From: Owenia fusiformis
Taxonomy: Eukaryota; Annelida; Polychaeta; Sabellida; Oweniidae
DNA length: 64,000 nucleotides
Assembly (NCBI GenBank): GCA_903813345.2
Contig: CAIIXF020000001.1
Location: forward strand, 31,536,556 to 31,600,555
Direction: 5' to 3'
Shown here piece by piece: positions 9,701 to 31,214 of the stretch. A program made the position numbers and the translations under genes. A model generated the notes under the pieces. The model saw only the letters and a list, made by a program, of their open reading frames with translations, was not told where the DNA came from and did no database searches. Numbering within the stretch: the stretch's first letter is position 1; each line of letters begins with the position of its first letter.

Positions 9701-12700
9701 TTTGCATTTTTATTTTTAAACTTTTGCATACATTTTCAGGTGTTCCCTTCGTTTATATCTCCATTCCTCTGTCTTTATTTATATATGCATTAAAAGTATG
9801 ATTTAACTTTTTTCTATATATTTAAACTATTTTGCAAACATATAAGTTTTGCTTGTTAATCTCCTACCAATATGATGCTTAATAGCTAATGTGTGAGCAG
9901 TAGATCTAGTTTTAATTACCATAACTTTATATTTACACTTTCTATAACATGGTATTCTAAAAGTGAAAATTTAACATATACAGGGTGACACAAAAGAATG
10001 CCACCCATACTCGTATAATGTTGCCTTACTTTTTTGTCTGTGTGATATCTGTGAATATCTAACACTAATGCATACAAAAAAGGTATAAAACATTATGTGG
10101 GTGAGTGGCATTTTTGTGTCACAGGGTACAAGGTGTCCAAGAATTAAAGTGACGAGATCATCTAAGGGGCTCATTAATACTTAATGAAATTACAGGATAC
10201 ATTTGTTCCTTTTTCAAATAAATTTATTGTTTTTCAAAAATACAACTGAAATTACAAAATATTATATTTTCTCCACTTGTAACTCATTCATCATTGTACT
10301 TTGTCTAGTATATTATCCGTATATACCCAAACCTCTTTATTCTTACTTCCCACTCTGTTAAATACAGTATGCTTCATCCGTATTGTCCATCATTATATGA
10401 AGAACCCGTGTAGAAAAATTCAGAAGATGCGAAGAGGAGGATGCATCAATTCCTTATAGTGCCTCTACTGTTTATCTGAATAATTCAGCACAACAGTTAC
10501 TTTAATTCTTGGACTCTGTATCATCTAATTAATATTATATACTTATATAGAGTCAGTACAATCAAGGAAAGCATTGAATAATGTCTAAATAGAACTATTT
10601 TCCTTCATTAATCTTGTATGTTCGAGTAAAATGGTATAACTTTAATTGGTTGAGGATAATAAGGCTATTCTTTACCTTTGGGAAGGAATGCAATGGAAAT
10701 AGTATACATTTAAGGGTCAAAATTATTCTTGATCTTGAATTCTTTCCCACATGGTGCATCATTATGCTTGTACAACAATGCTTAATGAGTTGGTGTGTTT
10801 GACTTGCAAGTTTTTAATACAGGAACCACCTCCAAAAAAGAAGAGAACAAAGCGTCCGAAAACACCACGATTCCCACGGGTAAGGACAACGACACAATCC
10901 AATATAAAAAACTTTTCAAGTACTGTATACAAGTAAACATCTTAACAAAAATCTAACATTTTAAAAATCTTCAATAATAATAAAATAAGCTTAATCTTAA
11001 AATACTCATATTGGCTTTTAATATTGATTTGCTCAACACCATTGCATTTTGGGTGTGACGCTTGTGCTTTCTATTGACAGCAACATTCCAGGTCTTCCGA
11101 ATGACACCAGCTGGCCTATGGACTAAGAGGATTAAGCATATGCGGGAGCTATGATATTTTCAACTGGTGCATTGATATGTGTTTGTGAATGCATATAAAA
11201 GGCTTGGCTCGATAATGATAACCACACCCTCTTTCTCTTAAGTGATAAATAAGACTGGGTATGGTAAATCAGAATGGCAGAGTCTGAGAGTACCAATAAG
11301 GTATTCATGTATAAGAAACCTCAAATCAAAAGCATGCATTGGAAATCATCTACACTACCTGTGCATACTGCCAGACAATGTCAGATTTTGTTTCCAATTC
11401 CCTTATCATTCTGCCTGTGCTTATATGAAGGATTTCTTTTTTTATAGATGACCTGATATGATATTGGCAAAAATGGCTCCAGTGATACTAGACACAGGGT
11501 ATCTGAAAATGTCTGTTGTTCTACAATAACACTATAATATGATTAGTGCATAAATGTTGATCCATGACATTCTGCATACATGTACAGATACAAATAAGTG
11601 TATTAAACATATATTCATGAACACCTAATTCATATATGAAGGAAATGTTTTATTTTAGCCTTCTGGAGAAGAGGGTGATAAATGTCCAGTAGTGTGCCCT
11701 CGGGGGCCTCGGGGCTTTAATGGTACACAGGTAAGACTACAAATGCATTGGAGTCTCAAGTTGTTGTGTCTTAAGTTTATGGAAATTTGGCCTGAGCTAG
11801 TCCTATATGTTTGTCTGTATTTATTTGAAATAAGTAATCTTTATCTTAAGCATAAAAATGCAATATTACAGATATTATTTAATTTCAATCTTTTTTCCAT
11901 ACAAGTTGACAGTTTTCATACACATTTTTTTCATACACAGTTCAAGGTTACACTTTTTTATGATACACCCAGACTCAATTTGCTCAAATTACAGGGTATG
12001 AAGGGAGAACGAGGAGCTGCAGGCCCACCAGGATTACCAGGTCTCACTGGGGATGCTGGCATTCCAGGTGACATAGGACCAGAGGGTCCTCGTGGTAGAG
12101 AGGTGAGACTTTATATTAATATAAAAAGTTGAGTAAAGACACCTGCGAAATGTTAACTTAACATTTAAAATGTCTATAGGATAGGAGAATCTGGAATATT
12201 AGAAGTGGGCGTTTTAGGTTAATATATCAATATAAGCTATCAAACAACTACTTTTTATTAGTTATGTTTTGGGGAAGGAGTAACTTCAATTTCTGTTATC
12301 ATACATGTTAAAAAAAATTCAGAAAATGATTACTTTGTTCATCTATGCTGGATTCATATTTGAAAGCTACATGAAAATTGACCTGCCCCTAAGCAGTATG
12401 ATATATAAGTTTGTGTATTCTAAAATGTTACTTAATGGGCCCCTTAATATGGGATGTTATTGCAGGGTGAGTCAGGTGTACCAGGGGCAACAGGACCAGC
12501 AGGCCCAAGGGGGGCAGAGGTAAGACTTATTTTGTGTATATGTTTGCATTTAGATATCACCTTTCAAATCCTTTTGTATACATATCCGTTAATCAATATG
12601 CGTGTTAATGTTTCAGGGTAAATCTGGACCCCAGGGTGTAGCAGGACCTCCTGGTCTACCAGGGCCAAGGGTAAGAAACATTTAAAATGCATTGATATAA

Positions 12701-15700
12701 CATATACTTTGAAAATGAAATCATATGTTTATCACTTCATTGCAAATACATGTATATTTACTAGCATGTCAAATCTAATTACTTATGATGATCATAAAAA
12801 CTTGAACAAGAAAAGTTAGAATGATGGTAGTTAGTAGTATTAACAAAAAATGTTCAGCACATGTAATCGACTTACTTTGTTTTTATGCCACAGGGGGAAA
12901 CAGGAGATCCTGGGGCCCCAGGTCAGGATGGTGAGCCAGGCTTTGATGTAAGTATGAAGCATTGTGGATGACAATGGAACTAATTAAGACAAATAAAATA
13001 TTATTCTTTCATCATTTTACAACTGTGCTCCGCCATTTCTCAATGCCCAAATTGGCAGATTTATCATTCACAGAATTTTCACTAAAGTGGTTCTTTTACA
13101 AACCTTTACAATTTATGTATGTAATCCAGCCATCTTCACTTATATCACCAAAATGCACCAACTATTTGTTTCATACAGAGGTAATTAAAGAGTAAAAACC
13201 TCTTGATGTTGATAAAAACCTCAAACTATTTTAGGGTGAAAATGGAGCACCTGGAAGAGATGGAGTGCCAGGGTTAAAAGGCGAACGTGGAGACACAGTG
13301 AGTTAAACTTATTTAAAGTTTTATTTTCATCATTTTTTTTAATTATTAGCATTAACTTTATCACAATTGGTAATTGGAAAAAATGAATGGAAGGGGGAAG
13401 GAGTAGCCCATTTCTGCTAGAAAATTTACAAAAATATCACTAAATGAATAGGTGAACATTATGGCAAAATTAAAATCTGTAGTTTTCTATGATTTTTCTT
13501 AACTGATACGCTTCTTCAATATTCTTGTTATAAATCAAAGAATGGTAGTCTACACAACGTGTGATAAATGCATATAGATGAAGTAATCATCACAAAATGA
13601 CAGCGGAGTTGCAAATCCCACCGAACAAAACACATTTTGATAATGAGTCAGGCCATCTCAAAAATTTCTTCTTGAACAGAGCATATAAACATATAAAATT
13701 TGTACAAAATCCACCCACTGGTATATGAGTTATCAAAGATTATGTTTTATCCAAAAATGACGGCCATTTTGAAATTCAGCTGCAATCTTGAAAATTTCTT
13801 CTCCTTTGTCCCTAGCAGCATATAAAATTTACACCAAATCTGTCTTCCGGTATTTAAGATCCAAGATTACGTTTTTAAAGACAAATGGCAGCCATTTTGA
13901 AAATGCAGCCATCTTGAAAATATCTTCTTGAGCAGACCTCCTTGATCTCTAAGCATCAGCATATAATATTTGAACCAATATTTGATTTTTTACAAGAATG
14001 GTGGCCATTTTGAAATTCAGCTTTCATCTTGAAAATTTCCTCTCAACCAGATCGTCTTTGTCCTGAAACCATTTTAAAATTTAACCGTCATCTTGAAAAT
14101 TATTTATTGAGCTGACCTTTTTTGTCCCTAGGCATCGACATATAAATTTTGTACCATATCTGTTCACTGGTATTTGAGTTATCAAAGATTACATTCTTTT
14201 ATGAAAAATGGTGGCCGATGGTGGAATTCAATGGCCATCTTGAAAATGCCTTCTTTAGTTGAGTTCCTTTGTCCCTTGGCATCAATACATAAAATTTGAA
14301 CCAAATCTGTCAATTGGCATTTGAGCTTTCAAAGATTACATTCTTTTATGAAAAATGGCTGCCATTTTGAAATTCAGCTGCCATCTTGAAAATTCTGTCT
14401 TGAACAGAGCTACTGTTTCATTAGGCATCAGCATATAAAATTTGAACCCACCATTTGAACCAAATCTGTTCATTAGTATTTGAGTTATCAAAGATCACAT
14501 TTTTTCCAAAATATGGCAGCAATTTTGAAATACAGCCCCAATCTTGAAATTTTTCGGAAACAGAACTACTGTGTCCTCAGCATGTAAAATTTGATCCAAA
14601 TCCATTCACTGGTATGCGAGTTTACATTACAAAGATTACATTGTTTTATTTTATAAAATTGGCGGCCATTTTGACATTCAGCAGCCATCTTGAAAAGCTC
14701 TTCTTGAGCTAAGAGGAGGGAAAGCCCCAGAGTTTCAAGATGACAGACATAATTACCTCTCTTGCTTAGCACCTTCGTTCGTTCGAATTTTCATCGGCTA
14801 GTTATCAAATACTACACTTCGATGGGATGTTTTAATTGATATAGGCATATTCCGTACACCTCTCTTTATCTTGATGTGAAATGAGAAGCTATGATATTGG
14901 TTAACACGCCAGAAATGAACATAATATTATTCGAAGGGTATTTCGAAAATTTTGAAACCGCCATTGATGACGTCATTTGTTTGTCGACTTTTGACCAATC
15001 AGCGACGATGTCATCTCAATACAGATTTACATTATAAGCGTATGTCATCTTTGAACCCTGGTGTTTCTCCCCCTCTGTCTTGAGCTGTATAATTTTGATT
15101 ATTATTTATTTGTTGAATTTTCTTGCAGAAATCAGCTACTCTCACCTCCATTTATTTCCAATTTGAAATTATTTCTAGGCGTGTTCATAAGTATCCACAT
15201 TGGAAGATAATATTTAGTTGCAAACCTTATACTATGAACTGACATAAACATTTTTGTCTGTTTCAGACAACTGTAAGTACAACAACCAGGTAACATCTTT
15301 ATGTTTTTTGAATAAGTTTTTGACCTGTCATTTAAGATCAACATTCAACAATGGTAAAATACAAAACACTGTTTAAAATGTGAAAATCTTGCTCAGATCA
15401 TATTTATGATAATTAAGGGGTTGATTTTCTATTTTGACTTTATGAGCTCTAACATATCTGTTGTGAACAGGTTACAGGTCCTGCTGGTTTACCTGGTGAT
15501 CCAGGGCCAGTAGGGCCACCAGGCCTTCAGGGTCGGCCAGGAAAGACAGGACCTGTTGGACCACCAGGACCCATTGGAGATCGAGTAAGTAATGTCATCC
15601 TCTAATATCCAGTAGACAGAAGTAAGAACAATACAGAAGCTTGATGAGTGATATATAACTATATGCATATCATTTTATTGTCCCAACTCAATCTCTTGAG

Positions 15701-18700
15701 GCACTATTGATAAACACTCTTGTACAGGCTACTGCAAAAGTCCAATTTTTCAAGGTGCCCTAATTTCCACTATTTTTGCTGAAGAGGCTAGACCGTGAAA
15801 TTAAAGCCACAGTGAAAATTTGTTTTAACATTGAATTCAATTGGATATTTCTTCAAAGAGTGAAATTCAATGCCAATGAAACATCTCAGATTGACAAAAT
15901 AGTGAAATTTTTTGTCAGCGAAAATTTGGGCTTTTACAGTATATAATACTGAATTACGATATAGCTGTATTTCTCCAGGGTAAACCAGGTACACCAGGCG
16001 CTATTGGAAGAACAGGGCAAAGAGGTGCAAAGGGTGACCCTGGAATAACAGGGAGAACTGGGAACACCGGAGACCCTGGCCCACCAGGTCCTCCAGTAAG
16101 TATCACTCTTAAGCTAAACTTGTTCCTGTCTGGGATATTGTGAAGTATTGCTAAGGTTGTTGTATGCTGCATGCAAGATTCTTGGTTTTTACATATAATA
16201 GTATAATTCTAAAAACTGATATTACAATGGCTCATATACATGTATAATTGGTCATATACATGTGTAATGGTTACTATTTCACTTCATTCTCTGTTTAATA
16301 TGATGATAGTGACCATCTCAGTCCAAGATTTGATGTAAATAGATTCATTATATCCTCAATAAATATACTGGATTTAGATCTCACGGTGAACTGTTATACT
16401 CATTTATAAGTGTTGTTTCAGGGGCTCCCTGGGAAAATTGTGACTGAACCTGATGGACCTAATGAAGTTATTGTGGAGGTAAATACTATTTTACATGAAT
16501 TCATAATGGAAGCCAGATGGAAGTTCACTAACCTTCACTTGTGTGTTACCCATCCCATTGGTTTATGTGCAAATATTGCTTTGAGTTATCAAAGATTACC
16601 CTTTTTATGAAAAATGGCAGCCATTTTAAAATTTAGCTGACCCCTTTGAAATTTCTTCTGAAGCAGATCTCCTTTGTCCCTAGACAATGGTAGACATCAG
16701 CATATAAAATTGGAACCAAATCCATCCACTGATATTTCAGTTATCAATGATTACGGTTTTTTATAAAAAATGGCAGCCATTTTGAAATTCAGCTCACGCC
16801 TTTCAAATTTCTTCTGAAGCAGATCTCATTTTTCCCTAAACATCAGCATATAAAATTGGAATCGAATCCATCCACTGGTATTTGAGTTATCAATGATTAC
16901 GAAAAATGGCGGCCATTTTGAAATTTAGTGGCCATCTTGAAAATGTCTTCTTGAGCTGAACTTCTTTTCTTTGTCTCTAGGCATCAGCATATAAAATTTG
17001 AACCAAATCCATCAACTGGTATTCGAGTTATCAAAGTTTGCGTTCTTTTATGAAAAAAGCAGTCATTTTGAAATTAAGCTGCCATCTTGAAAATCCCTTC
17101 TCGAGCAGAGCTCCTATGTCCCTAGGCATCAGCATGTAAAATTTGAACCAAATCCATTCAATGGTATTTCAGTTATCATTTTTTTACGAAAAATGGCCAC
17201 CATTTTAACCATCTTGAAAATGTCTTCTTGACCAAGGCTCCTTTGTAACCAGGAAACAGCATATAAAATTTGAACCAAATCTATCTACTAATATTTGAGT
17301 TATCAAAGATTATATCTTTTCAGAAAAATAGCCGACATTTTAAATTAAGTGGCCATATTGAAAATTCTTCTCGAGCAAAGGACCTACACCCAAAATTTGA
17401 ATGAAATCAGTCAACCTGTATATGATTTGAGTTATCAATGATAAATTTTTTTACGAAAACTGGCCACCATTGTGAAATTTGGTGGCCATCTTGAAAATGT
17501 CTTCTTGAGCAAAGTTCTTTTGTACCCAGGCAACAGCATATAAAATTTGAACCAAATCCATCCACTAGTATTTGAGTTATCAAAGATTATATTTTTTCAG
17601 AAAAATGGCCACCATTTTGAATTTAACGGCCATATTAAAAATCCTTTCTCGAGCGGAGGTCCTACACCCATAAGGCATAAGCCAATAAAATTTGAATGAA
17701 ATCCGTCTACCGGTATTTGAGTTATTGCCCGGACACACGAACGGACGGACAGACAAACAGACTATATCCCCTCGAACTTCGTTCGGTGGGATAATTAGTT
17801 TAAAGCAACATACAATCGGTTTGTTGTTACAAGTATTTTAAAACGATTGAAAGTAATAAATATGACTAGGTGACAAACAGATAACTATCAAAAATGTGTT
17901 TTGGTTCAGAAATTAAGAAAACAAAAATAAAATAAAAAGGAAACTAATATCACCACCCGTAATTGAATTTTGTAAAAATGCCAACTACATTAGACTGTGA
18001 AATTTAAAATATTTTGTACACATATAAAGAATTTCAGTTGCGCTCCTATAAGACAGTGCCTCTTTAAGAAGATTTTTGAAGTAATTGATACATGTTCAAG
18101 TATTTTAAAATTTAAAAAAAACTGAATTTTTCTCCATCTATTGAGAGTCCTTAAGGCATATGTCAACTATACATCAAATCAAAAGGTTTTCAAGTTCTAG
18201 ACCATCAAATCAAATGAAATCAAATAAGAGATAATTATTTGCATTAATACCAATAACTTAGAAATGACCCCTTATCATGAGAAAGTTAAGATATTAGATG
18301 TATTCAACATGCATTATTAATCTACATGCATTTCTGTTTCAGGGACCACCAGGTCCACCTGGAGTGCCAGGAAAGAGGGGAGCCGAGGGTCCAATAGGAC
18401 CAACAGGAGAGCCAGGGCCTAGAGGTGACATAGGAGAACAAGGAATGAAAGGAGATTCTGGTGAACCTGGAGTCCCAGGCTTACCAGGGCCTCCAGGTGT
18501 AGATGTGAGTATACTTAATATTAGCCATGCTTTATTACATTTGAATTGTTATATGTGATTTTCTATTTAGTGATTTAGATTCATATAAAAATCATTGCTG
18601 ATGTATTTGATTCAAGGGCATACCAGGACCAGTTGGACCCCAGGGAGTGACTGGGGAAAGAGGAAAACCAGTAAGTTTAAGTCTTTCCAAAGCTGAAGAA

Positions 18701-21700
18701 TCAACAAACTGAATAAACTGGTAATAACAAGACAAGATGAAAAGAAATTGTAAGGGGTATAATTATTTATAATGATCCTTTTTATCAACATGAACAAAAA
18801 TGTGCCTTATAACATTTACATGATATGATTTCCCTATTAGGGCATCCAAGGCAGAAATGGCCAGCCTGGAAATGATGGAATACCAGGCCGACCAGGGGAA
18901 GATGGCAAACCAGGAATAGCTGGACAACCCGGGCAGAGAGGACCTAGGGGATACCAGGTAAGACATAAACTTGTTGGTCTTATATGCTAAAGAATACCTC
19001 TGTGCTATATATATTATACATACTCTTAAATATTTGATATTTCTTGTTTGTCCATTTTACTTTATTAATACATATGCATAAATCTAAATCTAATGGCCGC
19101 CATTTTTTCATGAAAAGTGGTGGCCATTTTGAAATGAGAAGTCATCTTGAAAGTTCCGATGTGCTTAAACAATCAGCTTATAAAATTTGAACCAAATATA
19201 TCAACTGGTATTTGAATTATCAAAGAATACATTTTCTATAAAAAAGGGCAGGCATTTTGAAATCAGTGGCCATATTGAAAATGCCTCCTTGAGCCATAGA
19301 CATAAGCCTATGAAATTTGGACTAAATTCCATTAATGGTATTTATAATGATTTATCTATATCTGTATATGATTTATCTATATCTGTATCTATATCACATC
19401 AGGGAAATTAGCACTGGGGCCAACCCCTCCTAAGCGTCTCTTTCAGGACTTTCATCACTATGAAGCCCATATGCTATTGAGTTTGAAGCTGCCAACTGGT
19501 ATTTGAGTTATCATAGATAGACAAAAAATGAAAATTCCTACTATTGTACATACTGTGATTAATCATGAAAAAAACTTTGTTCGGTGTGATAATAAAATCC
19601 AAAATCTTATTTAGTAATCAGCAATGTATGACTAATATCTTGCTGACTGAAGACAAATGGCTTAAACACTATAACTATGTATTGATGTATCATTTAAGGG
19701 AAACCCAGGAGTAATAAGTGACGATAGACTGGATGAGCGAATCAATGATGCTATAACAAAATTGGAGGTAACATTTGATTTTAAACTAAGAAAATGTAAG
19801 GATTTAAAATAAAAAGTCCTAGTTTCTTGTCTCTACCAAACTCAATGTCAGACTATACATAAGAAAGAAAATATCTACTATATATACAGTATATTGACCA
19901 TGCTCCTAACAGCAAACATAGCAGTGCATTTTATCCAAAACACTTTCTATATGCAAGTTTGTCCAGGCCACTTGAAAGATTTACACAATACTAGACAGCA
20001 TGAAATTCATTAGTTGATATATTCTTTAGAACATGAGGTATTTGGTAGACATGTGCAAGCAATTATATTTATGAATGCATCTTAGGTGTATAATCGAAAT
20101 AAAGAGCCTCATGATCATGTACCCCAGCAGTATATGGTGAGCCTGGTCGTTTCGTCTTAGAATATGGTTTCATGTCCAGCTGGCTATATATACCTCAAAA
20201 AGCATGATTTTGAGACCCAATGCATGGTTTAGGTATCAGCTACAATATTCATGAATGTAGTCAAAGTAAACTTTTTGGTATATTCTTAGTTGAATATGGA
20301 TGATAACTGTATTGTCACTCATTCAAATTCAAACTACAGAAATATCAGTATTCCAAGTAAAAGGAAATCATGCTCTTTTGTGAAACAAAGAATAAAAAAT
20401 ATGCATTTTGTAGATGTGATTACATTATGACTGCAATTTGAACTTGGTTGGCATGTCAAACCAGACCAAGTACCTGAATGTGAGAGATTATAAACCCAGT
20501 GTGAAATACCCAAGAATGATTTCCTCCATCTATTCTTTTGCATTACATTCTCTGAGACACGAGAGTTGAAAGAAGATGACATCAAAGGGCAAAGTTATCT
20601 CTTTGAGGGCTTTACAATAGTTTTTTTGACAATAGAGGAAGTGTGTGATTCCTTTATGAATGACAATAGTTTATTTATAGGCTGTTGCTTAGAGTTGTAG
20701 TTTATATTTTTCTGTAAACTGTATAGCATTGAATCTCAAATTTAAATTAAGAAATACAGTAAATATATTATACATACATGTCGATTATAATACATTTATT
20801 AATCTCACATTAAAATTTACTTAAACGCCTCTTAACTATTGAGCTTGTATTTCAGGCTAGAGAAGGAAAAGAGGGAAGGGAAGGGAAAGATGGTGAAAAG
20901 GTAAGAAAATCCAAATAACATATTTAGTTATTTGTGCACTGTATATTGTATATTATCTTGCCTGAAAAATTTGTGGTATTATAATATTGTAGACTGGACA
21001 TGATGCTGAATATAGATGTTAATCTACAGTATGTACATATGCATATGTATGTATATGCATATCAAATTACGTATGAATATGATGTCAAACATATGAATGA
21101 ATAAGACTATCATAATATTAATATAACTAAACATCCCCTGTTGCCTTTTGAAATTTGCTGTAGTCCTTTGTCAAGTCAATAATGAAGGGCATACTAGCCA
21201 ACAATAAGTACCCCAAACAATTCATTCACTGCAGAGAGTACTGACAGAGGTATTCACCCACTATCTAATTCCAGGGAGCTAGAGGAGATAGCGGAGATCC
21301 AGGGCCACCAGGAAAAAGGGGTCTTGATGGTCTTGCAGGCCCTCCTGGTAATGAAGGGATGAAAGGTGAAGGTGGTGAGCCAGGACCACCAGGAATGAAG
21401 GGATCTGAAGGTGCCAGAGGAACACAGGGTCTTCCAGTAAGATCAAATAATGCAACCAGAGGAACATAACAGAATAACAAAAGAATATTATTCATTAGTT
21501 AATGATATAACTAAATGCATAGATTATATCTTGCAAAGCTCAAGTTACAATTGCTTTTGTTAATGTGAACTGTTTCAGGGTGAGAAGGGTGGACAAGGTT
21601 CAAAGGGAGAACAAGGCAATGATGGAGAAAAGGTAGTTTTATAACTTTTACTATCATCTCATCATCTCATTCACTCCATTTATGTCGTATATTTTTTATT

Positions 21701-24700
21701 TTAGGGTGTTGAGGGTCCATCTGGGCCTGAAGGACCACCAGGTCGCAGAGGCAGAAAAGTGAGATTAATTGCCTGTGGCATATGAAATAATTCCAATAAT
21801 ACTACTCATTCTAATGTCTAATGTTTTCATTGGTTGAGGTGCATCCTAAATCTACAATATCTAATATTCATGAGCTTCTAATATATTGTCTTATGTCATA
21901 TTAATTCTAAGGAGTAAACATCATACAACAAGCATGTGAAGGTGGAATCATTAATTGGAATATATGCTAATATTAAGCTGAATACAAAATGGCTTCAGTG
22001 CTGCAAAGGTACAATAATGCTAACATGCAACTAATTTCAGTGATCTTTTGAGAATCCGGTATTATACTTAATTGCCATTGTAAGAGAATGCGAACATTGT
22101 GAGATGTGTTTGACATAAGTAATACTTAAGATATAAGAACAAAGATTCTATGATTATGGACCCGATGTATGTACCATTAGAGGCATTATACTTTTTTTAT
22201 ACCATATCAGCAAACAAAAAAAGTCATGTATGTTATAAATCAAAGAATCAAGGTCCTTGTTACAATTCTAATGCAGATGATTAATAGACAACAACAACAA
22301 TAAACATTCAAAATCTAAATCCATTGTTCATAATGTTCATGGTGCTGTGATGTTACATAGATATTGTAGTGTAATGTATAATATAAATAATACTTCACAC
22401 TTTGCATTACAGAGCCAATCCATTATTTTTTGTTGTAGCATTTTCCATGTATTAAGTGTAAACCAAGGAGGAAAGATCTTTTTAAATATTCCTTCTAGAA
22501 TCAAATATAGAAAGCACAATCAATTCAATTGAGCAAATAATATAATACTAGCATATAGTATAATACTATATATTATTCCATGATGGTGAAATTCCCTGCA
22601 ATCTGATTGGTCCATGCGACTTAAAATATATATATTGTATTTACACGCACTTTCCACTTAGCGTTGGATACAGAGTGAAAATGACTTCAGCATTTGGATA
22701 CGGTCCAGTATCCTAATGCCCCAGAAATCAATTTGAAGCATGCACATTGTTTTCATGAAGTAGTAAAAATCCAATATGGCAGACGAACGTCGAAAAAACG
22801 TTTCGCTACACTACACTTTGAGCTGATGAAATTGAAGAGAAAAGACAAAAAATTAAACGTACCTTATAATACAATAAAAGCAAACAACAATGAGTAGGTT
22901 CATCTGTTTTTCCAGTCAAGCCAAGGAAATGGACTTGATTTTTGGGGAGTTTTATCTGAGTAATCATGGAATAAAAAGGTTATTTAATAACTTCTCGTGA
23001 AATACAGAAAATATTCTCTGCTAGCTCATTGTGAAATACAGACCTTCTCAGGCAGAATGTTTTCTGAATTTCACTCAAATCATTGAATAACTTATAGTAC
23101 CACCCTCTTGTTGAACACTAGTTACATTTCTGTGTGATGAGGCCATATTTTTTTTAAGTGCAAATCAATATTGCCTACTGATATGGATAAATGTCATTGG
23201 CTCGGTAACCCAGGGTGGGTATAAACATGTAGTTATTACTAAATCACAGTAAAGCGAATGTTCAATAATTGAAATAAGCTAAAGCTTTATGTTACAGGGA
23301 ATTCATTAATGGTGTATTAACAATAGGCATGCCAATACATAAAATATCTGTTGAAGATTATGTCCAAATGGTGACAGTTGTGGAAAGACTTTATTAGCTC
23401 CCTTCCCCTTTTATTATTTATCAAAATTTTATTGTTCCACTGAATCCAATTGGAAATGTAATATATAGGCATTGATAAACTTTTCATACTTGATTGATGA
23501 ATACTGCATATGTACATTGTTTTTTAATCCTCATAACTGCAGAATCTACCAAAATTGTATTTACATGGAATGAGGAAATGGTTCACTGAAATATTCTGAA
23601 CGCATTTATATAAATATGACCAACCTCCAACAGCCATAATTAACTTTCTCCACAGCTGTCAATATATAGAAACCCCACTTAATATAAGGTTGGGGTTACC
23701 TGTATATACAAGTACCAATAGGACATGTAATCAAAAAAAGAAGAAAACATGAAACTAAGTTAAACACATTCTTGATTTACAATTTACAAGTCTAAATGTT
23801 AAATGTTCAACATACTCAGATTTTACTGTACAGTAAATATTAATCATTTCAATGTTCACAATACACTATATGCATTACAGGGAGACATTGGTTCCAATGG
23901 GAGACCAGGACGAGATGGAAAACCAGGACCAAGAGGGCAACAGGTGTGAATAACCTTACACTTAATCAATATATTCTTTCACTATCATCTACAGTGTGTC
24001 AAATAAATATGTTTTCCCCTTCTTAGCTTTAACATCCAGATAATGTTGCACAAATTTTTACATCAAAACTAGGCTTCACACAAGAAGTTTCAGATAACTA
24101 GCTCAACTATAGATGCGCTTTTATGCACAAAAGTGAATTCTTTTGAAATTAGTTATTTGACATCCTGTACATACAACTCCCCAATAAGAGGAAATGTATC
24201 ATGAACCAATAATATACAGGGTGGGTCAAGATAAACTTCAATGTCCTTCAATGAGAAATGCTTTTTGGTCAACTTATCCTTTTGTATTTCCATAGGTTTG
24301 TCACTGACATGATAAATATGATTGCAGGGTGCCCCTGGCTTGCAAGGACCACCAGGCTCAATGGGACCACCAGGACTACCAGGACCACCTGGAACTCCTG
24401 TATGTGAACAGGAAACCAAAAATTATAAACCAGCTTATTTACTGTCATAAAAAATGAGTCTAAAATATTTTCAGAACATGAAATTTGGTGAGGTCTAAAT
24501 GTACTTCATAAAAAAAATCAACCACTATGTTTTTAGAATAATTAATGAATACAAAAATAAATATGTAAAAGGATAATACGAAATGGGCTACTTGTAAATA
24601 TACATGCAGGTATTAAAAATTAATTTACTGCCTATGGTGTAAGATTAAATTTAAATTGTATACATCACATATGTATTGCATAGTTATTCTTTTTAGGGCC

Positions 24701-27700
24701 AATTTGGACAAAAAGGAGAACCTGGAGATGTAAGCATTCTTTAAAATAATTTTGGATGATGGAGTTAATGAAAATTTCAATCATTATTCAATTTTGACCA
24801 TATACTAATAACAATAATTTTTAACTTTGTAACAACAATTTAATTAATGTTTTGATTGCGATTTTCTTATTTAATTAAAATTATTATACAAAATTTCATC
24901 ATACACTATCATTTTTATAGGGATACGGCGAAGGTCCTGGAAGGGGTGGATTGGATGTCATTGTAGGCCCTGGTAATTATGGACCATCAGGACCACCGGT
25001 TAGTGTGATTGAGACTATGAAGGAACAAGACATTTTGCTGGGTTTCTACATTGTCCAGATCTGAATGGCTAATATAAATTGAAAAATTGAATAAACCATT
25101 TTTTCAATAATCGCAGTGAACATTAAGAATATATGATATGTTTTTTTATATATTTGCAGGGACCTCCAGGCCCACATGGTCCCCCAGGAATGGTCTGTAT
25201 AGGAATATTATGTATAAAATCATTTCTGATAGTGGAAATAAAGTTAAAAATCAGTAAATTTCAATAGTTTTACTATTCTAAATTACTTGATATTAAGTTA
25301 CATCTTGATTTTCTTCTTTATATATTAAAAATTGCTTTCTATGTTATGAGCATGATTTTGAATATGGAAAGTTTTTGACTGTATGGCATGATAGAGTTCA
25401 GAATTATTTTCAGGGTTACATTCTCTTTGGTCATAAATGTATTTGCCTAGTTATCTGTTGTCTTTTGCAATGTCCATGAAGAATCACAATTATTATTTTG
25501 TTTTGTTTTTATTTGTTATATTGTGTTCATGTTTTAAACTGTTGGCCTGAGTGTTTAGATAGATTGTAGGTTATTGTAATTATTTAGATAGATAATTAAG
25601 TGTGCAGTGTTCTGTGTTATGAAGGTTATGCTATTTTATATGTATTACAATGTTTGTGTGTGCTCAATATTGCAGCCTGGTGCTCGAGGACCACCGGGGG
25701 AGTTGGGACCGAGTGGAGCACCTGGCGCCTCAGGAATGCCCGGCTTGTCTGGTCCACCCGGCTCACCTGGACCCCGTGGCTTGAGAGGTCAGCCAGGAAT
25801 GCCGGGAATTCCAGGGTTGCCTGTAAGTTTATCTTGACTTAGTGTAAGACAGTTGGACACTCCCCTTTTGTCTTCCTAACTACATTCATAATGCTATCTG
25901 TTTAATTTCACACTTGTTTCTGATATATTTTCTCTGATCTATTTTAGTTGTTTAAGCATTCATAATCACTTCTTAAGCTTAACCTTCTTATGATTTTGTA
26001 CCGCATGCTTTCTAAATAATGGAACTCTATTCAATTAGTGATCTTTGAAAATTCGCACTTAGTAAAGTAAAAAATGAAATATACAAGTGAATTTTCAAAA
26101 TTCACATCTTAGGACTCATTATTGTGAATTTTCAAAGATGCCTTAAGTTATGGTTTTAACATTAGGGACAACCCATTTAGTACAAGAAGGTTGAAGTGTT
26201 TATCAATAATATCCTATAATTAGCAAAAATAAAACACTCATCAATCTTGTACAAAATGACTGCTTCCTTAGAGGTAGTTGCGGTAGCTAGTAAGACACAG
26301 GGTCGATCTCTAAATGCCTTACATTAAATTGGGATTTGCTCTTCTCAGATAACCTTGCATTTCTGCTTGAAATTGCAAATGTATATTGCGTTGAGCTTAT
26401 AGCTGGGCTTTTCATTTCCAGATTGAGACATTGCGCAGCAGCTTTCAACAAAGCTGTCAACCATAATGTGCTGTATGTACGCATATGCTTGTTAATACAA
26501 GTAGCCAAATATAGAATAACTACTCATCATTCCATTTTGATTATTTTAAAACTTCCATGATCCCTTAGAGAGAATAATCCTGACCAACGCATAATTAAGT
26601 TGACCCAAACTAACATGTTAAAGTAGCTTTGCATACTCCTTTACCATATTTGGCAATCAGCAGGTAACATAATTAACACTTTTAATAAAACAAATGAAAT
26701 GTGTTTTACAGTGACTTCTTAATAGATAAGTCTAAGGAATGATATGAATCTGCTTCCGTCATATTTATTTCAAAATATAAGCTTGTTTAGTGATAATGGA
26801 ACCCCTTTCTTCTTGGTTTTAACTTCAAATAAACATCTGTATTTAATATTAATTTATAGTTAAATTTAAGTAATGTGTGTTTCACCTTTTCAATAATCAG
26901 TATATTCCCCTTTTCTTTGATTTTAATTTATTTGCATTTTATTAATCCAAATATTGCTTTATTCCTTGTACTAAATAATTAGGGACGCAGTGTAACAGAG
27001 AACGAGGTGAAGGAGATTTGTTTCAAGGTGCTCAGAGGTAAGTAGATACTAAATATCACAATATGTTTTTGATCTGAAATTTCTCGGCAAGTAAAATATT
27101 CTACACATGTTGAATAAATACCCTGAACAAAGACGCTAAATATATCACCCATGATTTTCTCTTCTCTTAATATATATCATGTCCTAACATGTCAGGACAT
27201 AGAAAAAGCATTCAGTGGATATATGCAATTGCTTTGTTATACCACACAGAGAGACTGGAAGACTTAGTAGCAGGGCTACAGGGTCCAGCAGGCCCAGCAG
27301 GGATTGGTCGTCCGGGCCGAACTGGCCCACCAGGAAAACAGGGAATTCCAGGTAAATCTTGATAATATATGATTTCATTGATTTATATTTTCTCCCCTGC
27401 AGAAAAACTGGAAGAGATGGTAGCTACTAGAGTTGGTCCTCCGGGGCCCCCAGGACGTGGGGAGCCTGGGAGAGAGGGCCCTCAAGGAAAGAAGGGGAGT
27501 CCAGGTATATGTCTTAGTGCGGCGGCCATATGCTATTTGCTAGACTGACCATCATTATTTAATAGCAGAACAGAACCTAGGAAAGATGATAGATTTAACT
27601 CACTAATGGCTAGGAAAAATATGGATATTGAAATGCTTACACCAAAAAATCAATCAGCCTCAGTGTAAACCCATTGAATGTAACATCAACATTAGCTTTA

Positions 27701-30700
27701 TATATAATCCTCAGTAATAATATATGTGTCAGTAAGTGGGAGTAAATGGGAATAAAAATAAACAAATAGACACCCCAAAACTATAGAAATGAAACAGACT
27801 AATATGTTACCCCAAAACAAACAGACATTTTAAAACCGTGAAAATGAAACAAACTAATACATCACCTAAATGACCATTTTCAAAGAGAGGCATACCACTT
27901 CTAACAATACAGCTTTGAATGTACCTGTACAATTAAATGTTTCTATTTTCATGGGTATCCTCATAAGAATGCATATTGGCTGATAAAATTGTTGCTTTAA
28001 TATATATAGAAATGCTATATGATTATTTCCAGGAAACCCAGCTTACTATTACAGTGACAAAGATGCTTTAATCTAACAGAACCTTTCAAAATAGTTAAAA
28101 TTTAAATCAAACAAATAGCTATATAAATTAGATTTGAAGCATTATTTCTATTACAAAAATTGTTTATTTGTTTAAAGGTTATACAATAATTAGACTGTAT
28201 GTGCATATTGGGTTGAGTATGTTATTATTACAGGTGACAGAGGGCCCCCTGGTGACTTGGGAGAGAGAGGTTTGATAGGATTCCCAGGGGCACCAGGCCA
28301 AACTGGTCCAGCAGGAGCCCCAGGTAACATGCAGATATGAACCACCCAGGGTAGTGTCACCAATTTAACTAATTAAGAAGCACCAACAAGCTGAAATGGG
28401 GATAGGTATGGCAAATATCACTAGAGAGGAAGCACAATTAAATGGGATTCTTATACTCCAGGGGTGATTCGGCAACATCAGTATAAGATTTTTTAATGCT
28501 TTTGGGTGCTTCTTTAAATCCCATGCATATACCCCCTCCTCTGGTGACACTTTCCTTGTTTTATATTGTAAAACTAACCAGGCTTGACTAATATGTTCCA
28601 CAGGTGATCCAGGTCCACCAGGGATGCAGGGAGAAAGAGGTTTTACAGGGTTCCCTGGCGCCCCAGGCCCAGAGGGGCCAACAGGATACCAAGGTAGACA
28701 TGGATGGTGGCACATCTGGGGAATGGTCCCAACAAACCTTTCATCTTAATCTAACCAGATATATCCATAAACAATAATTAAATCACCACTAGTACCCGAC
28801 ATACATACCCCATTTGTTGTATGTTATGATACGTCCTTTCCAACATGACATACAACAATACCATAGATGTGTCATTCACAGTAGTTGCATGCTATGGTTA
28901 TCCTTCTTCACAGGATAATCATAATTTAGTTGCCATGGACTTGGACTTGTAGTTGTCTGGTTGTGTACAATCATAACCTGAGTTGCCATGGTCTTGTAGA
29001 TACCTGTTTGGTTGTGTACAATCATAGCCTAGTTGCCATGGAGTCTTAGTTGTCTGGTTGTGTATGATAACAACCTGGTTGCCATGAAGTTGTACTTGTT
29101 TGGTTGTGTATGATCATAACCAAGTTGCCATGGAATTGTAATAGTAATGTACATGTACCTGTGATGTCAGGATGACTGGGGAGAAACAAAACACACATGT
29201 AACAAGATGGCGGCACTGCAGCTTACAATGTGATATCCAAACACTAAAAGGGTTGTAGCATTTACATTACAGTACCATAATCAATGTGATATACATCCGG
29301 AAATACAATATTGCTCATATTTCTGGAATAATGAACACTTCACTAAAACGAATATACTCAACAATTACAAAGGTTGTAATAATTGTTCTTAAATGACCAG
29401 TTGAGAAAGTTATTCCATAAAAACGTAATTACATGTAATCTAGAGAACAGATGTTTTACCAGAAAATTTCCAAAAACTTCAATGGATTTTGTTAAATAAT
29501 TCCTGGGAAACGAAAATATTTTGTCAATTACAAAACCAATTGGTTCATTTTCCAAAACCAGACAAATGTGAAAAATGGAAAAATCCCCATTCACTTAAAA
29601 AGCACATTGAAATTGAGGAAATCAACGGTAAATTGGAAAATTTATACAATGAATATATGAACAATGGTATATTGTCTAGTATGAGTAACATCAAATGTTG
29701 CAATGCTTTTGAGTTGGATAATATCACTGGTGATTTCTGAATGATGAAATGAATTGGATGTACAATACTTGAATATGACTGATCTTCTCTTGTGCAGGGA
29801 CTGTGACGCTGTCTCTTTTATAACACAATTTGTATGTCAATTTTCCTAATCTGTATAATTAATTAATTGATTGTCCCTTTGATAACAAACTAGCATGTCT
29901 ATACCTCACCCATACATTCTTATTGTTTCCTAGAAAATGCTGCATGTTATCTGAACATAATATTTTATGTATTGTTAGTTAAGCATTGCTTGTTTGAAAA
30001 CATTGATCTTGCATGTATACAGTTGTCTTCTTTGTGCACTTAGGGTCACTTGCCCCATGTTGCGCATTGCCTGCATGCCTTTTCCATAGCATATTACATC
30101 TTGTGGAATGTATGCATGTTGCATAGGTCAACAGGAATTACCTTACCTGTAGTTGCAGTGATCTCCTCAACATTAAGCCAAGTGGGTGCTGTTCTAACTT
30201 TTATTTTTTCAACTTGCACCCACTTGTACAAGAGAAAATTATGAAACACTGGTAGATTTTGAGAAAATTAGAATTTTTGGACTAAAAATCCTGGGGAGAA
30301 CACGGAGTTATTTATAGTACCTACTAGGATACAAGTAGCACATTATAACATGTTATAAACAGTATGGATAAAATATGCACATTTCTTCAAAAATTCATAT
30401 TATCAACCAGGCATTCTTGCTTTCCTCTAAGTTGTAGTAATATACACACCCAAATATATTTTAGCTTTTGTAGTTTAACACTTCAGTTAAAGCTTAAGTA
30501 CTTTTATGTAAGGAATACTAAAAATGAATGTGGTTTACTTTAATTGCATTCTCTTACTATTTAAGTTGATGTTCTGTGGTAGGTTGCATGTTTAAAACTC
30601 ACCATTATATTATTTTGATGTTTGCATTAGTAATTTACCAACAGATTTGATTCCCTAAAATTCTTTCCCTACTTCAAAAGTTTACAGACAAACTATGTAC

Positions 30701-31214
30701 AAATCCAAAGTGAGCCATACAAATTTGCATATAATTTGGCAAAATGTTAATGGTTGCAGGCCCACAAGGACCAAAGGGTGAGAGAGGTGAAGTTGGTTAT
30801 GGAAAAGCTGGTATGCGAGGACCAAGAGGCGTACCAGGTGAGCTATACAGCTAGAGAAAAAAATTGTACATGTACTTCATTCATATTAATGCCATAGTTG
30901 TATAACTTTTCAGAGAGGATAATAGCAAAATCATTATTCCAAACAAAGGAGTCTTGGATCTCTGTGTTTTGAGAATGAGTACTAGTGTGAGTTTGGAAAT
31001 ATATTCTAACTTCAATGAAACTGTTGTAGGACTTCCTGGACCTCCAGGTGCAGGGGTGCCTGGAAGAGAAGGAGAGAGAGGTCCCTCAGGAGAGAGAGGA
31101 TTGCCTGGAAGTCAGGGCCCACCTGGAGCTCAAGGTCCACCAGGATATTGTGAATACTGTAACTTTAATGTACCTCAGGGCTATCCTCCTAGGAATGATG
31201 TCAAGGGGCCTTGA
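721..31214 (+). CDS. COL9A1-like: FACIT collagen, alpha-1(IX)-like (36 candidate exons, 5' partial)
   Basis: Secreted matrix collagen of the FACIT class, whose members sit on fibril surfaces. Domain order: TSPN/NC4-type domain (exons 721-9330); basic linker (10823-10879); cysteine pair CPVVC (11659-11730) matching the vertebrate NC3 CPNAC; interrupted Gly-X-Y region (11995-25822); NC2-type segment with one Cys (26983-27037 plus the 27250 or 27403 exon); COL1 with G-Y-G and G-A-G imperfections; NC1 tail starting GYCEYC. N-terminal landmarks shared with collagen IX alpha-1 are CP...G-x-D/N-D-x-PG, RIPTR and HCDP...E-x-C-x-E-x-P. All junction phases fit: with one of the two 102-nt exons, the window encodes about 1053 residues, against 921 in human COL9A1. 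Vertebrate COL3 seems absent. The first exon here starts in phase 1, so the signal-peptide exon lies upstream. FACIT assignment is firm; type IX is likely but was not tested by a search. Confidence 0.88.
903..925 (+). repeat. mariner-like terminal repeat remnant
   Basis: TA followed by CGAGGGTTGTCCCAGAAGTA resembles a mariner terminal repeat. No partner end or transposase was found nearby. Confidence 0.35.
971..1670 (+). mobile_element. MITE, AAAGGAGCACGTAGG family, copy 1
   Basis: About 33-bp terminal inverted repeats (AAAGGAGCACGTAGGT... and the reverse complement at 1638-1670). Near-identical ends and much interior recur at 48216-48792. No coding capacity. Confidence 0.8.
1889..2056 (-). 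repeat. partial copy of fold-back MITE
   Basis: Shares the arm GTTGCGATACT...CTCCTTT and the AACCCACCCACATG block with the element at 41434-42091. Only one arm is present. Confidence 0.55.
2057..3803. other. collagen intron, no further feature seen
   Basis: AT-rich intron sequence. No exon-like triplet coding and no recognisable repeat. Confidence 0.5.
3804..3939 (+). CDS. collagen exon: TSPN domain, first part
   Basis: Encodes [13 protein letters not shown] through KADLRIPTR. Leaves with two bases (AG) of an Arg codon. The donor is AG|GCAAGT, a GC-AG intron: the phase of the next exon requires it and rejects the nearby GT. Confidence 0.88.
3940..7468. other. collagen intron starting with a GC donor
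   Basis: A 3.5-kb AT-rich intron. Apart from the short MITE at 5809-5890, nothing is recognised. Confidence 0.6.
5809..5890 (+). mobile_element. 82-bp hAT-like MITE with perfect 8-bp target duplication
   Basis: Inverted ends AAGCCTTGCCCAAATC and GACTTGGGCAAGGCTAG, flanked by the identical 8-mer CAAACCTG at 5801-5808 and 5891-5898. An 8-bp duplication is typical of hAT elements. Confidence 0.72.
7469..7697 (+). CDS. collagen exon: TSPN domain, middle
   Basis: Acceptor ttttctag. Completes Arg, then [18 protein letters not shown] and TWNLIRVED...FGIRLNGQ, the beta-sandwich core of TSPN. Ends in phase 0 at AAG|gtaact. Confidence 0.92.
7950..8126 (+). CDS. collagen exon: TSPN domain, WHK and DCD strands
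   Basis: 59 codons, phase 0 at both ends. Contains NWHKLSFQV and [15 protein letters not shown], the conserved WHK and first disulfide Cys region, then [11 protein letters not shown]. Confidence 0.92.
8127..9258. other. collagen intron, nothing recognised
   Basis: AT-rich intron between two TSPN exons; no repeat or exon seen. Confidence 0.5.
9259..9330 (+). CDS. collagen exon: end of TSPN domain
   Basis: 24 codons: [12 protein letters not shown]...ESCAEIP. The two Cys match HCDP and ETCHELP of collagen IX NC4. Donor CCT|gtaagt. Confidence 0.92.
9981..10126 (+). mobile_element. TA-flanked MITE, CAGGGTGACACAAAA family
   Basis: Long imperfect inverted ends (GGTGACACAAAAGAATGCCAC and GTGGCATTTTTGTGTCA), TA on both sides. 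Related copies lie at 46315-46886 and probably 24050-24235. A Tc1/mariner-type affinity is inferred from the TA. Confidence 0.62.
10129..10518 (+). mobile_element. TA-flanked MITE abutting the previous one
   Basis: Inverted ends CAAGGTGTCCAAGAATTAAA and TTTAATTCTTGGACTCTG, with TA at 10127-10128 and 10519-10520. The left TA is shared with the preceding MITE, so one inserted at the edge of the other. Confidence 0.66.
10823..10879 (+). CDS. collagen exon: basic linker
   Basis: 19 codons, EPPP then [15 protein letters not shown]. Phase 0 with good splice sites (taatacag, CGG|gtaagg). Strongly basic, so a heparin or proteoglycan contact is a reasonable inference. It occupies the place where vertebrate alpha-1(IX) begins its COL3 triple helix. 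Confidence 0.75.
11659..11730 (+). CDS. collagen exon: NC3-like cysteine pair
   Basis: [20 protein letters not shown]...: C-x3-C followed by Gly-X-Y, like DPLCPNACPPGRSGYPG of vertebrate NC3/COL2, where interchain disulfides form. Phase 0. Confidence 0.9.
11995..12102 (+). CDS. collagen exon: Gly-X-Y, 36 codons
   Basis: 108 nt (2 x 54), starts [13 protein letters not shown], uninterrupted triplets, donor GAG|gtgaga. Confidence 0.93.
12466..12519 (+). CDS. collagen exon: Gly-X-Y, 18 codons
   Basis: 54-nt exon, the unit length seen in fibrillar and FACIT collagen genes. [18 protein letters not shown]. Confidence 0.92.
12617..12670 (+). CDS. collagen exon: Gly-X-Y, 18 codons
   Basis: 54-nt exon, [18 protein letters not shown], consensus splice sites at both ends. 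Confidence 0.92.
12894..12947 (+). CDS. collagen exon: Gly-X-Y, 18 codons
   Basis: 54-nt exon, [18 protein letters not shown], donor GAT|gtaagt. Confidence 0.92.
13235..13297 (+). CDS. collagen exon: Gly-X-Y, 21 codons
   Basis: 63 nt, [21 protein letters not shown]. Joined to the next exon it gives G-D-T-V-T-G, a four-residue break in the triplet register. Confidence 0.9.
13616..14790 (+). repeat. array of ~145-bp ATGGCNGCCATTTTGAAA units, copy 1
   Basis: Degenerate tandem units: GCATATAAAATTTGAACCAAA, then ...TTTGAGTTATCAAAGATTAC, then AATGGCNGCCATTTTGAAATT, then a GCCATCTTGAAAAT block. Begins near CCCACCGAAC and ends near CTTCGTTCGTTCG. Lies in a collagen intron. Confidence 0.75.
15471..15584 (+). 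CDS. collagen exon: Gly-X-Y, 38 codons
   Basis: Starts [12 protein letters not shown]; acceptor gaacag. An alternative acceptor six bases further in (gttacag) would shift the frame, so the upstream one is chosen. Confidence 0.88.
15979..16095 (+). CDS. collagen exon: Gly-X-Y, 39 codons
   Basis: 117 nt, [13 protein letters not shown]... to GPPGPP, donor CCA|gtaagt. Confidence 0.93.
16422..16478 (+). CDS. collagen exon: non-collagenous interruption
   Basis: 19 codons, [19 protein letters not shown]. Triplets stop after GLPG and give an acidic 15-residue break before the next exon resumes with GPPGPPG. Probably a flexible hinge. Confidence 0.8.
16580..17796 (+). repeat. array of ~145-bp units, copy 2, with right cap
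   Basis: Eight or so degenerate units with TTTGAGTTATCAAAG every 130-155 bp. Ends in a cap of CGGACGGACAGAC repeats followed by CGAACTTCGTTCGGTGGGAT. Confidence 0.78.
17797..18342. other. collagen intron remainder, nothing recognised
   Basis: AT-rich, with a short CAAAT-rich patch near 18200-18225. Confidence 0.45.
18343..18504 (+). CDS. collagen exon: Gly-X-Y, 54 codons
   Basis: 162 nt (3 x 54) of perfect triplets, [13 protein letters not shown]... to GPPGVD. Confidence 0.94.
18617..18670 (+). CDS. collagen exon: Gly-X-Y, 18 codons
   Basis: 54-nt exon, [18 protein letters not shown]; acceptor tcaag is weak but phase and triplets fix it. Confidence 0.9.
18841..18957 (+). CDS. collagen exon: Gly-X-Y, 39 codons
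   Basis: 117 nt, [13 protein letters not shown]... to GPRGYQ, donor CAG|gtaaga. Confidence 0.92.
19091..19592 (+). repeat. array of ~145-bp units, copy 3, decayed
   Basis: Three or so units with GGCCGCCATTTT and TTTGAATTATCAAAGAATAC, ending in TTTGTTCGGTGTGATAAT, a changed form of the cap at copy 2. Confidence 0.65.
19699..19767 (+). CDS. collagen exon: non-collagenous helical interruption
   Basis: 23 codons: GNPG, then [19 protein letters not shown]. The second part looks like a short amphipathic helix with hydrophobic residues at heptad-like spacing, a possible trimer-registering coiled coil. Splice sites ttaag and GAG|gtaaca. Confidence 0.82.
19768..20855. other. collagen intron, nothing recognised
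   Basis: AT-rich intron without exon-like or repeat signal that I could support. Confidence 0.45.
20856..20900 (+). CDS. collagen exon: resumes Gly-X-Y, 15 codons
   Basis: 45 nt, [15 protein letters not shown]. Completes the helical break and restarts charged triplets. Confidence 0.87.
21275..21436 (+). CDS. collagen exon: Gly-X-Y, 54 codons
   Basis: 162 nt, [16 protein letters not shown]... to GTQGLP, donor CCA|gtaaga. Confidence 0.94.
21579..21632 (+). CDS. collagen exon: Gly-X-Y, 18 codons
   Basis: 54-nt exon, [18 protein letters not shown], donor AAG|gtagtt. Confidence 0.9.
21705..21758 (+). CDS. collagen exon: Gly-X-Y, 18 codons
   Basis: 54-nt exon, [18 protein letters not shown], donor AAA|gtgaga; only 72 nt after the preceding exon. 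Confidence 0.91.
21759..23880. other. collagen intron with a possible dispersed-repeat fragment
   Basis: 2.1 kb. The stretch near 22570-22625 (ATCTGATTGGTCCATGCG) resembles 36450-36500 (ATCTGATTGGCTCATATGG). The sequence from 22777 reads ATGGCAGACGAACGTCG, but only a 16-codon frame follows. No gene called. Confidence 0.4.
23881..23943 (+). CDS. collagen exon: Gly-X-Y, 21 codons
   Basis: 63 nt, [21 protein letters not shown], after a 2.1-kb intron. Confidence 0.91.
24050..24235 (+). repeat. possible single-ended fragment of CAGGGTG MITE
   Basis: CACAAGAAGTTTCAGATAAC resembles the interior of the element at 46315-46886, and ACAGGGTG occurs at about 24218. Ends do not pair well. Confidence 0.35.
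24328..24399 (+). CDS. collagen exon: Gly-X-Y, 24 codons
   Basis: 72 nt, [16 protein letters not shown]... to GPPGTP, donor CCT|gtatgt. Confidence 0.92.
24697..24729 (+). CDS. collagen exon: Gly-X-Y, 11 codons
   Basis: 33 nt, [11 protein letters not shown]. Ends mid-triplet, so the next exon creates an imperfection. Confidence 0.87.
24921..24998 (+). CDS. collagen exon: glycine-rich interruption
   Basis: 26 codons, [20 protein letters not shown] then GPSGPP. Glycine-rich but out of strict triplet register in its first two thirds. Confidence 0.86.
25160..25192 (+). CDS. collagen exon: Gly-X-Y, 11 codons
   Basis: 33 nt, [11 protein letters not shown]. The donor gtctgt is weak. The next exon starts with Pro and completes Gly-Met-Pro, which supports this boundary. 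Confidence 0.8.
25676..25822 (+). CDS. collagen exon: Gly-X-Y, 49 codons
   Basis: 147 nt, [11 protein letters not shown]... to GIPGLP, locally more GC-rich than its neighbours. Last exon of the central helical region. Confidence 0.93.
26041..26145 (+). repeat. small inverted repeat
   Basis: GATCTTTGAAAATTCGCA and TTGTGAATTTTCAAAGATG face each other about 70 bp apart, with a further AATTTTCAAAATT palindrome between them. A small MITE is possible; no target duplication is clear. Confidence 0.4.
26983..27037 (+). CDS. collagen exon: NC2-type segment with Cys
   Basis: 55 nt, [18 protein letters not shown] plus one base (phase 1). Aligns with GRAPTDQHIKQVCMRVIQ of vertebrate alpha-1(IX) NC2, including the interchain-disulfide Cys. 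Donor AGAG|gtaagt. Confidence 0.9.
27250..27351 (+). CDS. collagen exon A of a duplicated, probably mutually exclusive pair
   Basis: 102 nt, phase 1 in and out. G+AG gives [15 protein letters not shown]...GKQGIP. Continues the NC2 helix and enters COL1 with a G-I-G imperfection. Pairs with the exon at 27403: same length, phase and layout. Joins to 28234 in perfect Gly-X-Y register. Confidence 0.9.
27403..27504 (+). CDS. collagen exon B of a duplicated, probably mutually exclusive pair
   Basis: 102 nt, phase 1 in and out. G+AA gives [15 protein letters not shown]...GKKGSP, with a G-R-G imperfection. Lies 51 nt after exon A. Joining A to B would give G-I-P-E and a second helix-forming segment inside COL1; joining 27037 to B, or B to 28234, is seamless. 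Confidence 0.88.
28234..28323 (+). CDS. collagen COL1 exon C (duplicate of next exon)
   Basis: 90 nt, phase 1-1, [19 protein letters not shown]... to GPAGAP. Clear paralogue of the exon at 28604. Confidence 0.91.
28604..28693 (+). CDS. collagen COL1 exon D (duplicate of previous exon)
   Basis: 90 nt, phase 1-1, [19 protein letters not shown]... to GPTGYQ. Could be added to exon C or substituted for it without loss of frame or register. Confidence 0.91.
28928..29140 (+). repeat. minisatellite, ~56-60 bp unit
   Basis: About 4 units of TTGCCATGG...TTGT...TCTGGTTGTGTA...AATCATAACC in a collagen intron; units diverged. Confidence 0.7.
29141..30759. other. collagen intron with one unexplained ORF
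   Basis: Contains a plus-strand 83-codon frame at 29489-29740 (…[19 protein letters not shown]…), overlapped by opposite-strand frames. It has no flanking splice logic and no recognised family, so it is not called a gene. Confidence 0.35.
30760..30837 (+). CDS. collagen COL1 exon with G-Y-G imperfection
   Basis: 78 nt, [18 protein letters not shown]... to GVP. The G-Y-G break fits one of the two conserved COL1 imperfections of FACIT collagens. Confidence 0.9.
31030..31214 (+). CDS. collagen last coding exon: end of COL1 and NC1
   Basis: [18 protein letters not shown]... to [12 protein letters not shown], then a short tail and TGA at 31212. The second COL1 imperfection (G-A-G) lies about as far from the first terminal Cys as in vertebrate alpha-1(IX). 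The Cys pair is C-x2-C, whereas vertebrate FACITs have C-x4-C. An AATAAA at 31343-31348 is the nearest candidate poly(A) signal. Confidence 0.91.

Follow-up and report, generated by a model that had tools for sequence, protein, structure and literature searches.

The forward (+) strand of a 64,000-nucleotide stretch of the Owenia fusiformis genome (GenBank assembly GCA_903813345.2, contig CAIIXF020000001.1, positions 31,536,556 to 31,600,555; hereafter the window, numbered from its first letter) carries much of one collagen gene, which, judged by the domains it encodes, is collagen IX-like. Between 11659 and 31214 we placed 28 exons with GT/AG sites and an unbroken frame (Table 1), in DNA whose GC content is 31-39% in 4-kb windows. 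Where the non-collagenous domain NC2 gives way to the collagenous domain COL1, this gene holds two adjacent homologous exons, A and B, that are probably mutually exclusive, with the spliceosome normally taking one or the other. A second tandem pair within COL1, exons C and C', may possibly form another either/or choice.

The collagen IX-like identity proposed in an earlier note on this DNA held for both NC4 and NC2. The three NC4-type pieces found a sole PDB match at E values up to 0.001, namely 2uur, a collagen alpha-1(IX) chain (E 3.9e-38, with one joint letter of the query mistyped), and the Pfam laminin G models fell just below their cut-offs on these pieces (22.5 vs 22.9 bits; 21.7 vs 27.6). 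NC2 joined to exon A matches alpha-3(IX) with E 1.3e-7 and alpha-1(IX) with E 0.0029. The exon at 11659 encodes CPVVCPRG, whose paired cysteines may correspond to those of vertebrate collagen IX NC3. COL3 was not found between NC4 and NC3: the + strand before 11700 has no run of at least three Gly-X-Y triplets, and only two doublets lie between 9300 and 11660. The gene order thus seems to be NC4, linker, NC3, COL2, and because COL3 is missing from this place we call the gene collagen IX-like and do not assign it to COL9A1. Its resemblance to the collagen IX alpha chains (COL9A1/COL9A2/COL9A3) lies in NC4 and NC2 and, given one exon of each pair, its resemblance to alpha-1 and alpha-2 extends to the COL1 imperfections and the segment length. 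It differs from collagen IX in having no COL3 between NC4 and NC3 and in a COL2 of 555 residues, the COL2 of vertebrate collagen IX having about 339. The two tandem exon pairs are described here as a feature of this gene.

Results

Exons A and B are paralogues

According to the earlier note, A and B are paralogous exons of equal length and phase that follow a shared NC2 exon, and their coordinates, lengths, phases and splice dinucleotides were confirmed on the sequence. The two align without gaps, with 20/34 residues and 63/102 bases identical and with the same one-residue imperfection of the Gly-X-Y repeat, and in ungapped comparisons over the whole window and both strands each is the best DNA match of the other (63/102; next best 51 for each). 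When the 11 non-collagenous residues of B were shuffled, the observed score was reached in 46 of 100,000 trials. Identity by bases (0.618) is barely above that of the best unrelated short-exon pair (0.593 over 54 nt). Counted over non-glycine residues, the pairs stand apart: among the 23 equal-length exon pairs in the gene, A/B share 12/26 and C/C' 10/20, and the other 21 pairs share at most three, one of them (24921/30760) having its second exon read in the wrong phase.

Translation of the joins from NC2 to A, from NC2 to B, from A to C and from B to C showed that all preserve the frame, as had been claimed; A and B are equal-length, equal-phase, adjacent and homologous exons, each of which alone joins both neighbours in frame. 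The A to B join is also in frame and yields GIPEKLEE (G-I-P-E in the earlier note); it inserts an 11-residue non-collagenous stretch into COL1 and loses a glycine at the junction. The intron between A and B, if retained, would introduce two in-frame stops.

Table 1. Exons, intron and donor sites of the collagen IX-like gene, in window positions
Feature	Position	Strand	Description
Three NC4-type exon pieces	7479..9330	+	upstream part of same gene; PDB match 2uur; splice sites by eye
Short basic exon	10823-10879	+	
NC3-like exon and 20 COL2 exons	11659..25822	+	lengths all multiples of 3; COL2 exons phase 0
NC2 exon	26983..27037	+	55 nt, phase 0 to 1; first part of NC2 helix with Cys
Exon A	27250..27351	+	102 nt, phase 1-1; closes the NC2 helix and opens COL1
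A-B intron	27352..27402	+	51 nt; best branch-point-like sites 11 and 30 nt from donor
Exon B	27403..27504	+	102 nt, phase 1-1; paralogue of A
Exon C	28234..28323	+	90 nt, phase 1-1; ten COL1 Gly-X-Y triplets
Exon C'	28604..28693	+	90 nt, phase 1-1; tandem paralogue of C, candidate second switch
Exon D	30760..30837	+	78 nt, COL1; imperfection GY aligned to GR of alpha-1/2(IX)
Last exon	31030..31214	+	COL1 end with imperfection GPPGA, NC1 with CEYC, stop codon
Donor of A			CAG/gtaaat, without +5G
Donor of B			CAG/gtatat, without +5G
Donor of C			CAG/gtaaca, without +5G
Donor of C'			AAG/gtagac, without +5G

A second tandem pair in COL1

The pair C/C' is absent from the earlier note and was found in this follow-up. 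The two exons agree at 62/90 bases (69%) and 20/30 residues, and in the same whole-window comparison the next-best DNA match has 53 identities for C and 50 for C'. Against overlapping ten-triplet windows drawn from 504 residues of COL2, with starts at least 10 triplets apart, the non-glycine score of C/C' was equalled by one of 11,175 window pairs and the identity count by none, and permuting the triplets of C' gave a score this high in 13 of 100,000 trials. The C to C' junction keeps perfect Gly-X-Y register, across an intron of 280 nt. The intron after C' holds a 46-bp tandem repeat of 4.2 copies (28942-29140), besides which there is no other tandem repeat within 25800-31300.

Forms with one exon of each pair come close to the segment length of collagen IX

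All 16 inclusion forms of A, B, C and C' were translated, and every one has a single, terminal stop. The segment that opens with NC2 and stops just short of CEYC is 148 residues long in forms that take a single exon from each pair. It has 147, 147 and 145 residues in the alpha-1, alpha-2 and alpha-3(IX) chains of PDB 9wxp, which end at that point, where a Cys comes next. It is in these one-each forms that a COL1 with two imperfections and the conserved length is found. The form with A and C and that with A and C' need only one gap, of a single residue, to align to alpha-1 and alpha-2, both COL1 imperfections then being in register; the same holds for B with C and B with C' against alpha-1. The one-each forms score 349-373 against alpha-1, with A and C at 373; A with C and C' scores 351, A and B with C 346, and all four exons 323. 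When the form with A and C also takes in the partner of one or both, it grows to 178, 182 or 212 residues and its scores against all three chains fall. The forms with C and C' and neither A nor B (340) and with A and B and neither C nor C' (328) also score below the one-each forms. In a PDB search, the match of the form with A and C to alpha-1(IX) spans the whole of NC2-COL1 at 87 bits and ranks by summed score behind three longer collagen-like chains.

Splice signals of the duplicated exons and the 51-nt intron

None of the four donors of the duplicated exons has a G at +5, which is present in 22 of the 23 other donors (Fisher p 2.8e-4); since all four have a G at -1, which is able to compensate for +5, the test was rerun among -1G donors (0/4 vs 11/12, p 0.0027), and both p-values flatter the case, because the pattern had been noticed before it was tested. 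Scored with a leave-one-out matrix the four donors rank low (p 0.005), with that of C' third lowest of 27 and two non-duplicated donors lowest of all. The acceptor of A is the lowest-scoring of 28.

No other of the 27 introns is as short as the 51 nt between A and B, the next having 72. A branch-like site lies 21 nt from the acceptor of B, whose pyrimidine tract looks good by eye, and any site at least 10 nt from that acceptor is at most 41 nt from the donor of A. A minimum of about 50 nt from donor to branch point is cited for human splicing, and a distance of 35 nt abolished assembly on an E1A RNA (PMC6692369). The A-B intron falls below this figure, which is a human rule and may not hold in this animal. 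A survey of human mutually exclusive exons applied a steric criterion of <50 bp, which applied to 57 clusters (9%) (PMC5740500). RNA structure predicted for 27300-27460 is not more stable than that of shuffled sequences (z 0.35; 126 of 200 shuffled versions are equally or more stable), and this interval therefore gives no hint of a structure-based mechanism. Rfam reported nothing in the window at gathering scores.

What the swap would change in NC2

Collagen IX NC2 has been described as the smallest trimerisation domain known in collagens, and the neighbouring triple helix takes its stagger from it; in the numbering of its crystal structure the first glycine is residue 36 and the hydrophobic core begins at 44 (PMC5126661). 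The NC2 exon aligns to residues 36-53 of the crystal chains and the A/B swap begins at residue 54, which leaves Cys48 and residues 44-53 the same in both forms. Between 54 and 64 the two exons have different residues at 55, 58, 59, 62, 63 and 64, the sharpest contrast being at 63/64 (L63/Q64 in A, R63/V64 in B), and their first COL1 triplets differ too. Of 21 positions, 19-20 in A and 17-18 in B follow the hydrophobic pattern of the three collagen IX chains. The earlier note's placing of the swap in the trimer-selecting region of NC2 is thus borne out for the last third of the helix (to about 64), which changes, and not for Cys48 and 44-53, which do not. As these remain constant and the differences fall within 54-64 and the first COL1 triplets, the A/B choice would more likely tune the end of the trimer bundle and the COL1 junction than replace the selecting core.

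Constraint and duplication history

The Nei-Gojobori method, which on such short sequences gives rough values, yielded dS 1.33, dN 0.37 and dN/dS about 0.28 for A/B, and dS 0.97, dN 0.27 and dN/dS about 0.28 for C/C'; with codons that are Gly in both copies left out, dN/dS is about 0.38 for each pair. When A was given 39 random substitutions in 20,000 trials, all 8 shared glycines were kept in 0.025% and no stop arose in 32%. Both pairs fit old duplicates under selection, not a decaying copy. The order A B C C' is most simply explained by two separate tandem duplications, and one duplication of an A-C unit is not favoured. No third copy of either pair was seen, the next protein-level matches being known collagen exons or frames overlapping the last exon.

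Discussion

Mutual exclusion of A and B, as the earlier note had it, is favoured by the segment length, the donors without +5G, the 51-nt intron and the constraint on both copies; it is, from the sequence, the probable reading and not a proven one. We picture that A and B would have arisen when the exon that completes the NC2 helix and opens COL1 was duplicated in tandem long ago, and that the intron between them is probably too short to be engaged by donor and branch-point factors at once. Because of this presumed crowding, NC2 would be joined to either A or B, each of which would then be joined to COL1 downstream. Competition between the poor acceptor of A and the better pyrimidine tract of B would probably set the choice, perhaps tuned by trans factors. 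Either form would keep the cysteine and the first two thirds of NC2 and swap the last helical turns together with the first COL1 triplets, which would adjust trimer stability, stagger or chain partner. If this is true, the A/B switch shows an animal altering collagen assembly by splicing, and a switch at the end of NC2 is a natural variant pair for asking which residues set partners and stability.

For C/C' an either/or choice is a tentative proposal, put forward because forms with one of each pair best match the segment length of collagen IX; the length match and the common donor feature give testable predictions for this pair. That two independent either/or choices would let one gene make up to four NC2-COL1 chain types is a rather unlikely extension. 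If it were true, splicing would supply the chain diversity that vertebrates get from three genes, and exon switching could let cells change the composition or stagger of their trimers.

Several observations weigh against mutual exclusion or against the length argument on which it partly leans. Since every join, A to B included, keeps the frame, joint inclusion is not forbidden, and some invertebrates splice introns of about 50 nt. Forms with B and either C or C' align to alpha-2 only with larger gaps, and alignment of any one-each form to alpha-3 takes gaps of six and three. The forms with C and C' alone (144 residues) and with A and B alone (152) also come near the family length, and against alpha-3 the latter (320) and A and B with C (315) score above the B-only forms (297). 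In a PDB search the form with B, C and C' matched the 9wxp alpha chains best outside NC2. The length argument is further weakened by the 555 residues of COL2, which show that domain length is not generally kept. Nor are the four donors weaker by consensus, matching CAG/gtaagt at 8, 7, 7 and 5 of 9 positions against 5-8 in the others. Weakness of the acceptors as a mark of the duplicated exons was considered and rejected (group p 0.15). An assignment of A and B to particular vertebrate chains was likewise rejected, as the scores do not convincingly separate them.

Among the other explanations, we lean slightly towards the view that C and C' are both constitutive and that this animal just has a COL1 with 30 extra residues. 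The perfect register from C into C', an intron of 280 nt that poses no steric problem and a COL2 likewise longer than in vertebrates all agree with it, whereas a segment of 178 residues against 145-147, and two donors without +5G of which one ranks among the lowest, do not.

Constitutive use of both A and B would mean that the 51-nt intron is spliced and that COL1 contains a second short non-collagenous helix. The signals at B would allow it, with a good pyrimidine tract and a branch-like site at 21 nt, and all joins preserve the frame; A and B with C outscores B with C against alpha-3(IX), and many similar adjacent human exons are not mutually exclusive (PMC5740500). The resulting segment would have 182 or 212 residues, depending on C and C', where the family has 145-147, the glycine at the A-B junction would be lost, and the shortest intron of the gene lies under the human minimum, which together make joint inclusion unlikely.

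Strict exclusion might also fail if A and B were ordinary cassette exons or leaky alternatives, with either, both or neither taken. Every form, even that with none of the exons, keeps the frame, and a zebrafish col11a1a variant contains both exons 6a and 6b, thought to be exclusive elsewhere (PMC7558312). Skipping both would, on the other hand, remove the end of NC2 and leave 84, 114 or 144 residues with alpha-1 scores below those of the one-each forms, and the short A-B intron may hinder joint use; we regard loose inclusion as quite improbable. That one of A and B is a relic, seldom or never used, would suit the low-scoring acceptor of A, yet it is very improbable given that both copies retain the frame, all shared glycines and the splice dinucleotides, with dN/dS 0.28 at a dS of about 1.3 and random substitution so rarely sparing the 8 glycines.

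Mutual exclusion of A and B would have company, since exon choice in collagens is a known kind of event from COL5A1, COL11A1 and COL9A3. The let-2 gene of C. elegans, encoding a type IV collagen, has either/or exons 9 and 10, and exons 64A and 64B of COL5A1 are mutually exclusive and lie near the C-terminal trimerisation part of a fibrillar collagen, not in a FACIT NC2. The COL5A1 pair, on record as alternative exons (PMC13077938), resembles A/B in being an exon choice in a collagen gene. Exons 6a and 6b of COL11A1 were previously thought mutually exclusive (PMC7558312); they differ from A/B in encoding a variable region beside the amino propeptide, and in the zebrafish variant that has both. 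The human survey names a cluster in COL9A3, a collagen IX chain (PMC5740500). The steric mechanism proposed for A/B has a counterpart in alpha-tropomyosin, whose exons are exclusive by the distance from donor to branch point (cited in PMC6692369); there the cause is an unusual location of the branch point, here an intron of 51 nt. Among the matches listed in the open-licence literature, covering titles and abstract openings, none describes a choice of exons in the NC2 of a collagen IX gene or where NC2 meets COL1 in a collagen IX-like one.

Other features of the window

Two scans covering bacterial and archaeal genomes returned no relative. Within COL2, the exon at 24921-24998 is Gly-rich and imperfect, and a further interruption occurs at 20856. 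Elsewhere, the open frames at 91-335, 47440-47949 and 55440-55703 repeat the same wording (e.g. GPFWSLLGLVRPYLLI) and have, by eye, the look of a dispersed repeat.

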